DNA of 42,544 nt, taken from the NCBI RefSeq assembly GCF_029265695.1, contig NZ_JAJUHW010000025.1:1-42544 (forward strand), written 5' to 3'. The stretch is from Gracilinema caldarium. GTDB taxonomy: Bacteria > Spirochaetota > Spirochaetia > Treponematales > Breznakiellaceae. The position numbers and the translations under genes were made by a program. This document shows, piece by piece, positions 5,782-9,520 of this stretch (position 1 is its first letter; each line of letters opens with the position of its first letter). Below the pieces are notes generated by a model that saw only the letters and a program-made list of their open reading frames with translations, searched no databases and had not been told where the DNA came from.

Positions 5782-6243
5782 ATGAGATGCCCCCATTGTG
5801 GCAACTTCGATGACAAAGTAATTGAATCCCGCACCCTCGCCAATGGTGAGGCGATACGGCGGCGCCGGGAATGCAACGGATGCGGCTACCGTTTTACCAG
5901 CTATGAACGGATAGAAGACAAACAGTTTATGGTCATCAAACGGGATGGCCGGCGGGAACCCTTTGACCGTTCAAAGATTGAACGGGGAGTTCAGCGGGCA
6001 CTGGAAAAACGGCCAGTCTCACAGATGACCATAGAAAATATCGTCAACGAGATTGAAGATGCGGTGGTCATCGCAGGTAAGGCAAACCATGAGATATCCA
6101 GCAGAGAAATCGGAGAACTGGTGCTCGAAAAGTTGGGTGCCATCGACAAGGTTGCCTATATACGGTTTGCGTCGGTATATCGTCATTTCAAAGATTTGGA
6201 AGAATTTGTCCAGGAGATACAAAAGTTGGGGGGTAATGCTTAA
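5782..6243 (+). CDS. nrdR: Transcriptional repressor NrdR
   Basis: NrdR senses ATP/dATP and represses ribonucleotide reductase genes. The 153-residue protein has the family length, an N-terminal zinc ribbon with Cys3, Cys6, Cys31 and Cys34, the basic RRRREC segment and FTSYERIE, then the ATP-cone domain starting MVIKRDGRREPFDRSKI. The gene is first in its operon and ends directly at the nrdD start codon (TAA then ATG). With two NrdR-like boxes at its own promoter, negative autoregulation of the whole nrd operon is the natural reading. Confidence 0.97.
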   Translation: MRCPHCGNFDDKVIESRTLANGEAIRRRRECNGCGYRFTSYERIEDKQFMVIKRDGRREPFDRSKIERGVQRALEKRPVSQMTIENIVNEIEDAVVIAGKANHEISSREIGELVLEKLGAIDKVAYIRFASVYRHFKDLEEFVQEIQKLGGNA

Positions 6244-8301
6244 ATGAAACAGGTGGTTAAACGCTCTGGTAAAATCGAAGCCTATGACCGGCTGAAGATT
6301 GAGGCTGCTGTCGGCAAGGCTTTCAAAGCTGTCGGAGTTTCCGAATTAGGCGAAAACGGAAAAAACAAGGTGCAGCTCATTGTGGATCGGGTTGAAGAAC
6401 TGCTGAAACTCATGATGAAGCAGCGCCACCCCAATTCTATCCCTGCCATAGAAGAAATACAGGACCTGGTGGAAACGGCCCTCATAGAGTTCCGGGAAAT
6501 CGCCGTAGCCAAGGCGTATATACTCTATCGTTCACGGCACGAGGCTATTAGGGACACCAAAAAACTTCTGGTTGATATTGATGCCACCATGGATGGCTAC
6601 CTGAACCAGTCTGACTGGCGTGTCAATGAAAACGCCAATGTAAATTACTCCCTTGGGGGACTTATTCTTCACAATTCAGGGACAATTACTGCCAATTACT
6701 GGCTTAAAAATATCTATTCAGAAGCGGTAGCTGAGGCTCACCGGAATGCGGATTTTCATATCCACGACCTCTCCATGTTTTCTGGCTATTGTGCCGGCTG
6801 GTCCCTTAGGCAGCTTATTCAGGAAGGACTCGGGGGCGTACCGGATAAAATTAGCTCCAAGCCGGCCCGTCACCTGAATACCCTTATGCAGCAGGCGGTG
6901 AACTTTCTGGGCTGCCTCCAGAATGAATGGGCAGGGGCCCAAGCCTTTAGTTCCTTTGATACCTATATTGCCCCCTTTGTAAAAATAGATAAGCTCACCG
7001 ATAAGGAAATTAAGCAATGCCTGCAAAGCTTTATCTTTGGAGTTAATACCCCCAGCCGCTGGGGAAGTCAGGCGCCATTTACCAATATTACCTTGGATTG
7101 GACCGTACCCCAGGATCTCCGGAACAAACCGGCAATTGTAGGCGGTAAGGAGATGGACTTTACCTATGGGGATTGCCAGCCAGAAATGGACCGTATTAAC
7201 AAAATTTTTATTGAACTCATGCTCGAAGGGGATGCGGCAGGCAGGGGCTTTCAGTACCCTATCCCAACCTATAACATCACCGCCGATTTCAACTGGGACA
7301 GCGATAACGCTCGGCTCCTTTTTGAAATGACCGCCCGATATGGTACTCCTTATTTCCAAAATTTTGTTAACTCTGATCTTGATCCAAGCGATGTCCGATC
7401 CATGTGCTGCAGGCTCCAGCTGGATAAACGGGAACTACGTAAACGGGGCGGCGGACTATTCGGTTCCGACGAACTCACTGGCTCTATTGGGGTGGTGACC
7501 ATCAACCTTCCCCGCATAGGATACTTGGCAAAAGACGAGGATGATTTCTTTCGCAGACTGAGTCGGCTCATGGATCTGGCCAAGGAAAGTCTTGCGACCA
7601 AACGGAAGGTAGTGAACAGACTACTTGAGGCTGGACTATTTCCCTATACAAAACGATACCTCAAATCGCTGGATAACCATTTCAATACCATCGGGCTTGT
7701 TGGCATGAATGAATGTCTTTTAAATTTCTTCGGCCCAGACTGCACCATCGCCACTACACAAGGCCAGACCTTTGCGCTTAAGACCTTGCAGTTCATGAGA
7801 AACAGACTTGCGGATTATCAGGAAGAGACCGGAGAGCTGTTTAATCTTGAAGCAACCCCTGCCGAATCAACATCCTATCGACTCGCAAAACATGATAAAA
7901 AACGGTTCCCCGATATTATCACCGCCGGAACTGATGAGCCCTATTATACCAATTCAACCCAACTTCCGGTGATGCTGACCGATGATATTTTTGATGCCCT
8001 GGATCTACAAGAAAGCCTCCAAGCATCTTATACGGGCGGTACGGTTTTTCATACTTTTTTAGGGGAAGCTATTGATGATTGGCGGACTTGCCGAAACCTG
8101 GTGAAATCTATTGCCCACAATTACCGGATTCCTTACTTTACCATCTCTCCAACCTTTTCTGTGTGTCCCGTTCACGGCTATCTGGCCGGCGAACACTTTA
8201 CCTGTCCTCTCTGCAAAGAAGAGCAGGTATCAGCAATACAAAAACGTATCGCCGCTTTGGAACAGGAGCGGGAAACATTATTACAAGGAGTTACAAAATG
8301 A
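6244..8301 (+). CDS. nrdD: Anaerobic (class III) ribonucleotide reductase, catalytic barrel lacking the glycyl radical segment
   Basis: NrdD reduces ribonucleoside triphosphates to deoxy forms without oxygen. Seen in 685 residues: an N-terminal ATP cone (VVKRSGKIEAYDRLKIEAAV), the barrel with FLGCLQNEWAGAQAFSSFD, a cysteine pair in RSMCCRLQL, and GSIGVVTINLPRIGYL, and a C-terminal metal-site region with CPVH near 641 and CPLC near 655. The chain then ends in a short charged helix. The glycyl radical motif (R-V/I-x-G-Y), expected 30-60 residues beyond the metal site in ordinary NrdD, is absent here and is found in the overlapping next gene. The stop codon TGA is part of an ATGA junction with that gene. 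Confidence 0.95.
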   Translation: MKQVVKRSGKIEAYDRLKIEAAVGKAFKAVGVSELGENGKNKVQLIVDRVEELLKLMMKQRHPNSIPAIEEIQDLVETALIEFREIAVAKAYILYRSRHEAIRDTKKLLVDIDATMDGYLNQSDWRVNENANVNYSLGGLILHNSGTITANYWLKNIYSEAVAEAHRNADFHIHDLSMFSGYCAGWSLRQLIQEGLGGVPDKISSKPARHLNTLMQQAVNFLGCLQNEWAGAQAFSSFDTYIAPFVKIDKLTDKEIKQCLQSFIFGVNTPSRWGSQAPFTNITLDWTVPQDLRNKPAIVGGKEMDFTYGDCQPEMDRINKIFIELMLEGDAAGRGFQYPIPTYNITADFNWDSDNARLLFEMTARYGTPYFQNFVNSDLDPSDVRSMCCRLQLDKRELRKRGGGLFGSDELTGSIGVVTINLPRIGYLAKDEDDFFRRLSRLMDLAKESLATKRKVVNRLLEAGLFPYTKRYLKSLDNHFNTIGLVGMNECLLNFFGPDCTIATTQGQTFALKTLQFMRNRLADYQEETGELFNLEATPAESTSYRLAKHDKKRFPDIITAGTDEPYYTNSTQLPVMLTDDIFDALDLQESLQASYTGGTVFHTFLGEAIDDWRTCRNLVKSIAHNYRIPYFTISPTFSVCPVHGYLAGEHFTCPLCKEEQVSAIQKRIAALEQERETLLQGVTK

Positions 8302-8786
8302 GGACCCTGGAACAAATTGAGCAGGAATTACAAGAAGCTCGAAAAGCCCTAGAACATGTTCAAGGAAGGAGTACCGAAGTATACAGCCGTATCGTGGGCT
8401 ACTACCGTTCGGTCAAAAATTGGAACAAGGGTAAACGAGAAGAATATGAAGAGCGAAAGCTGTTCCGGGTGCCTTCGGAAAAAGAAGGCAGTGCCAAACA
8501 ATTAGATAAAGCGGAACGAGCCCAGCCGAGACTCATTCTATTTGTACGTTCAGCCTGTCCAGCCTGTCCCCCTGCAAAAGATGCGGCGACAAAACTGGGT
8601 ATTCCTGTTGAATTGGTCGATGCGGATACCGCACAGGGACTCTCAGAAGCAGCTCGGCTGAATGTACATGCAACGCCGACCGCCATATTCCTTGACACCC
8701 ATGGGAATGAACTGGGAAGAGCCAGGGATGCACGATCCATTCTGGCCTTTGCAAAGACCCAAAACCGCATCGAGACTGCAGTATAG
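8298..8786 (+). CDS. Stand-alone NrdD glycyl radical domain fused to a thioredoxin-like domain
   Basis: A 162-residue protein. Residues 1-24 are a charged helix. Residues 25-56 are the NrdD C-terminal glycyl radical segment, with TEVYSRIVGYYRSVKNWN and GKREEYEERKLF; Gly34 is the expected radical site. After a linker (57-76) comes a redoxin fold from LILFVRSACPACPPAKDAA (CPAC, Cys87 and Cys90) through ATPTAIF with the cis-proline Pro127. AAGGAG at 8285-8290 lies seven bases before the ATG, which overlaps the nrdD stop. Inferred role: supply the radical loop to the NrdD barrel and perhaps re-reduce it. A longer in-frame extension upstream overlaps nrdD fully and is unlikely. Confidence 0.9.
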   Translation: MRTLEQIEQELQEARKALEHVQGRSTEVYSRIVGYYRSVKNWNKGKREEYEERKLFRVPSEKEGSAKQLDKAERAQPRLILFVRSACPACPPAKDAATKLGIPVELVDADTAQGLSEAARLNVHATPTAIFLDTHGNELGRARDARSILAFAKTQNRIETAV

Positions 8787-8797
8787 CTTAAAACACT

Positions 8798-9520
8798 ATG
8801 CTTAAGGTGGGTTTACAAAAGACGAGCCTTATCGACTATCCAGGGATAGTGGCGGCAGTGGTATTTTTGCCCCTATGCAATTTCCGTTGTCCCTGGTGTC
8901 ATAATAGTCCCTTGGTAAATAGGGCCGAAAGTGAAACGGCAGACCTTATTCCCCTGGATACGGTCAATACGCTGCTTTTAAAGCGGCGATCAGTTCTTGA
9001 GGGAATCGTTATTTCCGGGGGAGAGCCTACCCTCACCAAAGAACTACCCGACCTTATCAGCCTGTACAAAAATATGGGTTTTAAGGTAAAGCTGGATACC
9101 AATGGCAGTAGGAGCGATATTTTAGAGAAACTACTGTCGCACAAAACATATAGGCCCGATTATATTGCCATTGATCTTAAGCTGCCTCCAAACCGGTATG
9201 TAGAAGTGGGCGGGGATGGCAATGAACTTCTTAAAAGCATAGAAATGATAAAACAAAGCTCTGTTGCCCATGAATTGAGGACTATCGTACTCCCCGGCAC
9301 CAATGGAACTACCTCAGATATACAGGAGATGGCGTTACTGATAGACGACACCACACCATGGTATTTCAGCCCCTTTAGGCCCGGAAGCTGTCTTGATCCA
9401 TCCTGGAATTTGTTGCCTCCCACCAGTGAATCGGAGGTGGCCAGGGCAGCGGATTATGCCCGCAGCCTCGGAAAAAGGGCTTATGTCCGGGGGATAAACC
9501 AAAACCTTAGCAAACACTAA
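8798..9520 (+). CDS. nrdG: Anaerobic ribonucleotide reductase activating enzyme, radical SAM
   Basis: The activase uses a [4Fe-4S] cluster and S-adenosylmethionine to place the radical on the reductase glycine. The 240-residue protein shows the radical SAM cysteines Cys27, Cys31 and Cys34 in CNFRCPWCHNS and the SAM-contacting GGEPTL. It is longer than E. coli NrdG (about 155 residues) and fits the longer NrdG2-type activases. It follows the glycyl-radical/redoxin gene by 11 bases, so its substrate here would be a glycine on a small separate protein. The ribosome site is weak. A terminator hairpin overlaps its last codons. Confidence 0.92.
   Translation: MLKVGLQKTSLIDYPGIVAAVVFLPLCNFRCPWCHNSPLVNRAESETADLIPLDTVNTLLLKRRSVLEGIVISGGEPTLTKELPDLISLYKNMGFKVKLDTNGSRSDILEKLLSHKTYRPDYIAIDLKLPPNRYVEVGGDGNELLKSIEMIKQSSVAHELRTIVLPGTNGTTSDIQEMALLIDDTTPWYFSPFRPGSCLDPSWNLLPPTSESEVARAADYARSLGKRAYVRGINQNLSKH

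Follow-up and report, generated by a model that had tools for sequence, protein, structure and literature searches.

The stretch of DNA analysed here (the window) comprises positions 1 to 42,544 of contig NZ_JAJUHW010000025.1 of Gracilinema caldarium (assembly GCF_029265695.1), and very probably encodes a class III ribonucleotide reductase composed of two chains. Four genes were found in order on the + strand, nrdR, nrdD, a gene of 162 amino acids (aa) and nrdG. The catalytic barrel encoded by nrdD ends before the glycyl-radical loop, and this loop is located on the next gene, fused to a domain with a thioredoxin fold (redoxin). Both features, the split gene and its fusion to a redoxin, are genuine.

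One Pfam profile, PF13597, was covered complementarily by the two genes, with positions 1–539 of 562 matched by nrdD and 532–562 by the small gene. The nrdD product also matched PF03477 over residues 3–100 and the model PRK08270 over positions 2–661 of 684. The barrel of the NRDD family with an ATP cone, the finger-loop cysteine, the zinc site and an encoded NrdG are all those of an NrdD, while the radical glycine is not at the C-terminus of the same chain, and the enzyme is hence a two-chain variant. A preliminary description of this DNA had reported that nrdD stops at residue 685, shortly past the metal-site region and without a radical-loop motif, and that the next gene consists of a short helix, a loop with the motif RIVGYY and a thioredoxin fold with CPAC and ATPT; the open frame and the profile matches bear out the former, and the latter was found as described (Table 1). 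The two genes share the bases ATGA (8298–8301), and Gly34, within RIVGYY, is encoded at 8397–8399. Gly34 and its RIVGYY context were invariant in the small proteins compared (29/29), and 18 of their 20 invariant columns were in or around the radical loop. Six Pfam families were listed for the small protein up to E 0.1, with PF13597 among them and Gly_radical (PF01228) absent, although HMMER filters can lose weak matches.

The search of the own genome (G000) retrieved one NrdD barrel and one separate loop. An ordinary NrdD with an overlooked C-terminus was rejected, since no second NrdD-type loop was found in this genome. A third weak NRDD match (contig C1, 1426–1935, 27.1 bits) was rejected as a second NrdD, as it corresponds to a glycyl radical enzyme of the YjjI family with its own loop (L305, 982–2472; TIGR04040, E 7.2e-205). 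An assembly error or chance was ruled out by the same break in closed relatives, such as the single-contig genome G001 of the same genus (completeness 100), which has a single barrel gene and a single, separate loop gene; the closed genome G030 is also split. The alternative considered in the preliminary description, an intact nrdD in all close relatives and an assembly error at 8298, did not hold. A large chain of class II type (PF02867, 1282-aa frame) is also encoded in the own genome (contig C34, 135603–137750).

A total of 58 genomes, including the own genome, were searched, with the small protein present in 39 and an NRDD match in 41. The barrel ended before the loop in 36 of these 41 genomes and the whole profile was in one frame in three (G035, G048 and G053); in the remaining two, the barrel reached the contig end (G009) or only the loop was seen (G007). 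In the loci of the relatives, the barrel has a stop before the loop, followed by a new start, with overlapping genes in the genus of the window and gaps of ~15–220 bases elsewhere. A neighbouring nrdR accompanied the split barrel at 33 of 35 loci and was missing from L049 and from L071, which lies at the start of a contig, and a relative of nrdG was found in 29 of the 35 loci holding a separate loop gene. The conservation proposed for checking in the preliminary description was thus confirmed, as the split and the redoxin fusion are kept across many families of the phylum.

A wider sample of 389 genomes of the phylum (completeness at least 90%), taken from a larger group, yielded an NRDD match in 265, all of which were searched with the loop profile. 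The 232 genomes with a match were sorted by hand on the basis of profile start and open-frame length: the loop was a separate gene in 169, either with an N-terminal helix (128) or tiny and without helix (41), and part of one chain in 63 (frame of at least 403 aa), among them G390 with a weak match (E 4.7e-5). No matching loop was retrieved by this profile in 33 of the 265 genomes; the five that were read (G053, G205, G262, G371 and G396) have an ordinary, distant NrdD.

The two genes are unlinked in some relatives. In the closed genomes G036 and G039, whose loci were those read in their genus, a loop protein of 95–98 aa without redoxin is encoded directly before nrdG, at 527 kilobases (kb) and 95 kb, respectively, from nrdR-nrdD. 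The helix at the barrel tail and that at the head of the loop protein are both present in the two genomes. Given this distance the loop protein must act in trans there, and neither linkage nor coupling nor frameshifting can be required. Six genomes of this genus (G036, G039, G149, G187, G191 and G312) have a short loop frame of 106–148 aa from stop to stop, and the seventh, G333, one of 177 aa. A ribosome-binding site precedes the ATG in 137 of 159 separate loop genes versus 16.8 expected, these 159 rows being partly from overlapping genome sets.

Table 1. Position of the genes and sequence elements of the nrd locus in the window.
Feature	Position	Strand	Basis
nrdR, ribonucleotide reductase transcriptional repressor, operon head	5782..6243	+	TIGR00244, E 7.9e-56
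nrdD, barrel subunit, 685 aa: ATP cone and catalytic barrel, without radical loop	6244..8301	+	open frame
Finger-loop MCCR, residues 387–390, radical cysteine site, double-cysteine type	7402..7413	+	aligned to SCCR of Thermotoga maritima NrdD
Glu536 in FNLEATPAES, candidate active-site glutamate of thioredoxin-using NrdDs	7849..7851	+	aligned to E of T. maritima FNIEQVPAE
Zinc site CPVH...CPLC, residues 641–657, final barrel-chain element ahead of the cut	8164..8214	+	sequence
Barrel C-terminal heptad helix (KEEQVSAIQKRIAALEQERETLLQGVTK), half of a proposed coiled-coil clip	8215..8298	+	hydrophobic periodicity
AAGGAG, ribosome-binding site of the small gene	8285..8290	+	sequence
Small gene, 162 aa: helix, glycyl-radical loop, linker, thioredoxin fold	8298..8786	+	separate frame
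Heptad helix at the N-terminus of the small protein, partner of the barrel helix in the proposed clip	8298..8366	+	periodicity; model helix 4–19
Glycyl-radical loop, residues 25–56	8370..8465	+	PF13597 532–562, E 1.4e-08
Redoxin domain, residues 78–161	8529..8780	+	Pfam, AlphaFold2, Foldseek
CPAC, redoxin residues 87–90	8556..8567	+	sequence
Cis-proline P127 in ATPT	8676..8678	+	sequence
nrdG, radical S-adenosylmethionine (SAM) activase, NrdG2 type	8798..9520	+	TIGR02495, E 2.3e-46, above cut-off

Redoxin domain and electron supply

The fold, the CxxC motif and the cis-proline of thioredoxins are all present in the small protein. When modelled alone with AlphaFold2, it showed a head helix at residues 4–19 and a beta-alpha-beta-alpha-beta-beta-alpha order at residues 81–150, with predicted local distance difference test (pLDDT) values of 95–98 per block, and the Foldseek matches of the model were thioredoxins and DsbD-gamma. 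The Pfam glutaredoxin match to the redoxin part was just below the cut-off (22.3 versus 22.9 bits). CxxCP was conserved in 109 and the cis-proline motif in 110 of 114 distinct relatives.

The redoxin as a chance neighbour was rejected, since a barrel followed by a loop-redoxin gene was found in 123 of 169 loop rows, which are not independent, many loci being from overlapping sets of the same genomes; 122 rows were reduced to 114 distinct pairs for the helix and motif statistics. The other 46 rows comprised 24 lone loops with no barrel recognised in the locus, six loop-redoxin genes with the barrel outside the locus or unrecognised, ten split pairs without recognised redoxin, some of them cut or frameshifted (L115, L136) and one with a divergent redoxin (L166), and six one-chain enzymes. 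The barrels of tiny loops are mostly unrecognised in this table because the sorting required a close barrel; they were instead read individually. L087, whose frame runs past the contig end, was not counted as redoxin-free.

The finger-loop motif MCCR was conserved in 50 of 51 redoxin-split barrels and the motif NLEA[TS]PAE, whose glutamate (Glu536 in the window) is presumably a proton donor, in all 51; the corresponding figures were 61/62 and 60/62 for redoxin-fused barrels, and 89/90 and 88/90 for the barrels of the window type in the tree set. Six ordinary NrdDs did not match either pattern. The MCCR exception, L035 (3514–6549), has an intein-like insert of ~300 aa between the two cysteines, starting with C and ending with HN before C, and the NLEA[TS]PAE exceptions, L181 and L205, are one-chain redoxin enzymes. 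These motifs permit the use of a redoxin and do not single out the fused barrels, because redoxin-free barrels carry them too.

In the available part of PMC9669993, thioredoxin use is associated with the double cysteine and the glutamate, and formate use with a finger-loop methionine. For this reason the fused CxxCP redoxin would be the natural electron donor, a reading supported by the motifs, and formate might be used as well. The double cysteine without methionine of the class III enzymes that use only thioredoxin was not found, as MCCR keeps the methionine. A one-chain NrdD-loop-redoxin of ~800 aa is encoded in L204 (2006–5350), a faecal contig labelled as phage, directly followed by a Pyr_redox_2 gene; its product, a pyridine nucleotide-disulphide oxidoreductase, resembles a thioredoxin reductase in our reading, which fits a thioredoxin-type supply. 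The preliminary description proposed that the small protein carries its own electron donor, which is supported by the MCCR/Glu active site and by relatives with barrel, loop and redoxin on one chain; for its other proposal, that the small protein brings the radical to the barrel, homology and the lack of another NrdD-type loop in the genome search are strong support.

Helices at the cut, proposed mechanism and alternative explanations

In the 114 distinct split pairs, the zinc site CPVH/CPLC, in the same order in the relatives, is followed by a charged barrel-tail helix of ~20–30 residues, with a large hydrophobic residue at positions 8, 12, 15 and 22 in 99, 100, 98 and 72% of the pairs, respectively. 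In the small proteins, large hydrophobic residues are located 23, 20, 16, 9 and 6 residues before the loop in 84, 97, 100, 96 and 80% of the pairs, and 13 residues before it in 33%; this periodicity gave 0.002 in a shuffled-position test. In 19 of the 21 one-chain relatives read, the last CxxC and the loop motif are exactly four residues apart, and neither helix is therefore present in them; likewise, neither was seen on reading the sequences of the tiny-loop pairs. The matched helices at both new ends are probably a coiled-coil clip holding the chains together, since a hydrophobic spacing of 3–4 residues is that of a coiled coil.

We infer the following mechanism for the two-chain reductase. 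The barrel chain, with ATP cone, active site and zinc site, no longer has the C-terminal radical loop, which the second, small chain would supply. NrdG would activate the small chain by placing the radical on Gly34, and this chain would dock its loop into the barrel with the help of the clip formed by the new C-terminal helix of the barrel and its own new N-terminal helix. The radical would be handed to one of the cysteines in the MCCR finger loop, and the tethered thioredoxin fold would re-reduce the active-site disulphide after every turnover.

Several observations weigh against parts of this mechanism. Redoxin-free small proteins exist in G036, G039, L158 and L162, and the redoxin is thus not indispensable; according to the accessible part of PMC9669993, enzymes with MCCR may use formate as well. 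The pairing of the helices is deduced from periodicity, which for the barrel tail alone was marginal in the shuffled-position test (0.048), and the two other one-chain relatives read, L215 and L216, have a long, different tail instead of the direct join. When the pair of G030 was joined by read-through and modelled, mean pLDDT was 68, the radical loop and linker were below 50 and docking was not seen; this model has two confident helices at the cut.

Among the alternative explanations, it is very improbable that a single protein arises from the two frames through frameshifting, read-through or protein splicing, the split then being confined to the DNA. The ATGA overlap in the genus of the window, and the single stop between genes in the same frame in some relatives, could be read in this way; on the other hand, the gaps of ~15–220 bases in relatives, with several stops and all three relative frames, the ribosome-binding site ahead of the small gene (137/159) and the separation by 527 and 95 kb in G036 and G039 argue for two proteins. 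It would be just as surprising if the barrel gene were decaying and the pair inactive, with another reductase serving the cell: the catalytic motifs are kept across many families, nrdR and nrdG accompany the split barrels (33/35) and the loop genes (29/35), and the invariant columns of the small proteins concentrate at the loop, whereas the class II type large chain (PF02867, 1282-aa frame) of the own genome is in favour of such a decay.

A function of the small protein as a repair part only, serving barrels whose loop was destroyed by oxygen as GrcA/YfiD does for pyruvate formate-lyase, is improbable. A stand-alone loop follows the same logic, extra loop copies occur in several genomes of the phylum, and spare parts are possible for other glycyl radical enzymes judging by the consulted part of PMC8683613; nevertheless, this barrel has no loop of its own and no other NrdD-type loop was found in the genome, so that the small chain should be needed at every turnover. 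Within the two-chain enzyme, replacement after damage may be a bonus, and the suggestion of the preliminary description that oxygen damage is mended by exchanging the small part is kept here as a hypothesis, with which the extra copies and the loops of viral contigs are compatible without demonstrating repair. Less improbable, though still rather doubtful, is that formate is the reductant and that the redoxin guards the radical, senses the redox state or reduces NrdG or the cysteines of the zinc site. The methionine kept in MCCR, linked to formate use in the part of PMC9669993 available, and the split lineages without redoxin are in its favour; the fusion of the redoxin to the same enzyme in one-chain form in several families, the Pyr_redox_2 protein after L204, and the double cysteine with the NLE motif favour electron donation by the redoxin.

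Architectures, phylogeny and viral loops

Four architectures were distinguished: one chain without redoxin (e.g., L062 and L176); one chain with redoxin, found in several families (L051, L177, L179, L181, L205–L207, L217–L219 and L224); a barrel with a separate loop-redoxin, as in the window; and a barrel with a bare loop, either of the long-helix type (L052–L055, L158 and L162) or of the tiny type (46–65 aa). In L036 (7013–7546, genome G008) a stop is located between loop and redoxin, which may reflect either a sequencing error or a split into three parts.

A tree of 96 barrels was obtained by a quick search, with support values from the Shimodaira–Hasegawa-like approximate likelihood ratio test (SH-aLRT) only. 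A starred group of 69 comprised the redoxin-bearing enzymes, both one-chain and split, together with six redoxin-free rows and the cut row L037, apart from the tiny-loop type. Two one-chain redoxin lineages (families f20 and f2) nest within split ones, by re-fusion or tree error, both being possible. That the redoxin-type split arose only once was not rejected by the approximately unbiased (AU) test (p 0.296; 68-row reduced set, quick tree), which is no proof thereof. The redoxin was probably attached first and the cut between barrel and loop made later, since one-chain redoxin forms are interspersed with the split ones in the tree and also surround them, and since the test did not reject one origin of the cut. 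The tiny-loop type is in another part of the tree, among redoxin-free one-chain enzymes (support 90, not starred), and its cut is therefore likely of separate origin. L215 and L216 (family f42) are one-chain enzymes with a long tail ahead of the loop, in which the usual second CxxC is missing, and resemble a re-fused tiny-loop pair.

Two or three loop genes are present in some genomes (e.g., G100, G117, G119, G121 and G192). Some of the extra copies were located near phage or mobile genes, namely a YqaJ recombinase (L194), an ArdC N-domain (L189) and a TrbI protein (L196), and in L190 near leuS. Two loop-redoxin genes are on one contig in L127 (1–5677), possibly a duplicated radical subunit; G329, perhaps the same genome, has three loop matches. 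G137, G141 and G168 (family f3) have an ordinary one-chain NrdD plus a split pair, with three NRDD matches and a separate loop.

Viral contigs were scanned with the tiny loop, giving 376 stretches, of which 362 were confirmed and 80 loci kept (L225–L304), a biased sample consisting of the best by similarity to that loop. The loop was in a frame of 46–263 aa (stop to stop) with no barrel within ~4 kb in 73 of the 80 loci (e.g., L230, 4001–4123, and L226, 4001–4132), a barrel was nearby in three, and four were one chain. In the whole viral records, which may be fragments, a barrel match was found in 7 of 79 and none in 72. Neighbouring frames looked phage-like, as judged by eye, in the eight loci inspected. 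Three viral loop proteins compared with PHROGs gave weak matches to reductase families or to an unnamed family, or none. The plasmid search retrieved one weak match, to an annotated nrdD, and the phage-record search two, the one-chain enzyme of L204 and an annotated reductase.

The radical part looks like an exchangeable subunit, because the cut recurs across much of the phylum and the radical piece is found on its own in viral contigs. The viral loops suggest that phage-borne radical domains could serve host reductases as spare parts, in parallel to Y06I of phage T4, which we take to be the same protein as vs.6. Y06I is a spare part for pyruvate formate-lyase in the available part of PMC8683613, and vs.6 appears in that of PMC1524935. 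Tentatively, the radical domain might be regarded as a free exchangeable cofactor across much of the anaerobic world, in the form of an obligate, clipped redoxin subunit in spirochaetes, of bare domains of ~46–65 aa, sometimes in two or three copies, in further lineages of the phylum, and of phage loops without barrel that would rescue oxygen-damaged host barrels and restart the synthesis of deoxynucleoside triphosphates (dNTP) during infection.

Comparison with known systems

No account of a class III reductase with the radical domain as a separate gene, or fused to a redoxin, was found in the open-access literature searched, which, in the portions consulted, places the radical loop at the C-terminus of NrdD. 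The accessible part of PMC3653736, in which the term "glycyl" was not found, reports an nrdD broken in three in Aeromonas phage phiAS4 and intron or intein cases in other phages. Pyruvate formate-lyase repair by YfiD or T4 Y06I is the two-part exception among glycyl radical enzymes in the text available of PMC8683613, which leaves open spare parts for others. New here are the helices at the cut ends, the probable redoxin-first order, the motif counts in redoxin-fused barrels and the barrel-free viral loops.

Glycyl radical enzymes are described with barrel and radical loop on one chain, and the prevailing architecture in the sample of the phylum is a natural form with two chains. One-chain, split-plus-redoxin, split-without-redoxin and tiny-loop forms are available side by side for comparison, and docking and activation of the radical domain in trans, a class III reductase drawing electrons from a tethered redoxin, and phages bringing radical spare parts for the dNTP synthesis of the host become testable. 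Short free loops are easily missed by annotation, as seen in the PHROGs results of the three viral loops.

With respect to known systems, the enzyme shares with ordinary NrdD (PF13597, PRK08270 group; structures 4coi, 4u3e and 8p23) the ATP cone, barrel, MCCR, zinc site and NrdG/NrdR neighbours, and differs in the radical glycine on a second gene product with redoxin and in the extra helices at both new ends. The thioredoxin-using class III enzymes of N. bacilliformis and T. maritima (NrdD2) also have the double-cysteine finger loop and the active-site glutamate, but are one chain, with an external thioredoxin and a motif without methionine. GrcA/YfiD and T4 Y06I are likewise small stand-alone proteins with a glycyl-radical loop for a large barrel; their loop is of the Gly_radical type and the partner of GrcA/YfiD has its own loop, whereas the loop of the window is of the NrdD type, its partner barrel is loop-free and a redoxin is fused. 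NrdJa/NrdJb of Pseudomonas aeruginosa, a split class II enzyme, is also a reductase from two adjacent genes, although of another class. Finally, in NrdB of Facklamia ignava, as set out in the part of PMC6187632 consulted, a glutaredoxin is fused to the radical-carrying reductase subunit, in this case a radical-generating class I NrdB with the fusion at the N-terminus.

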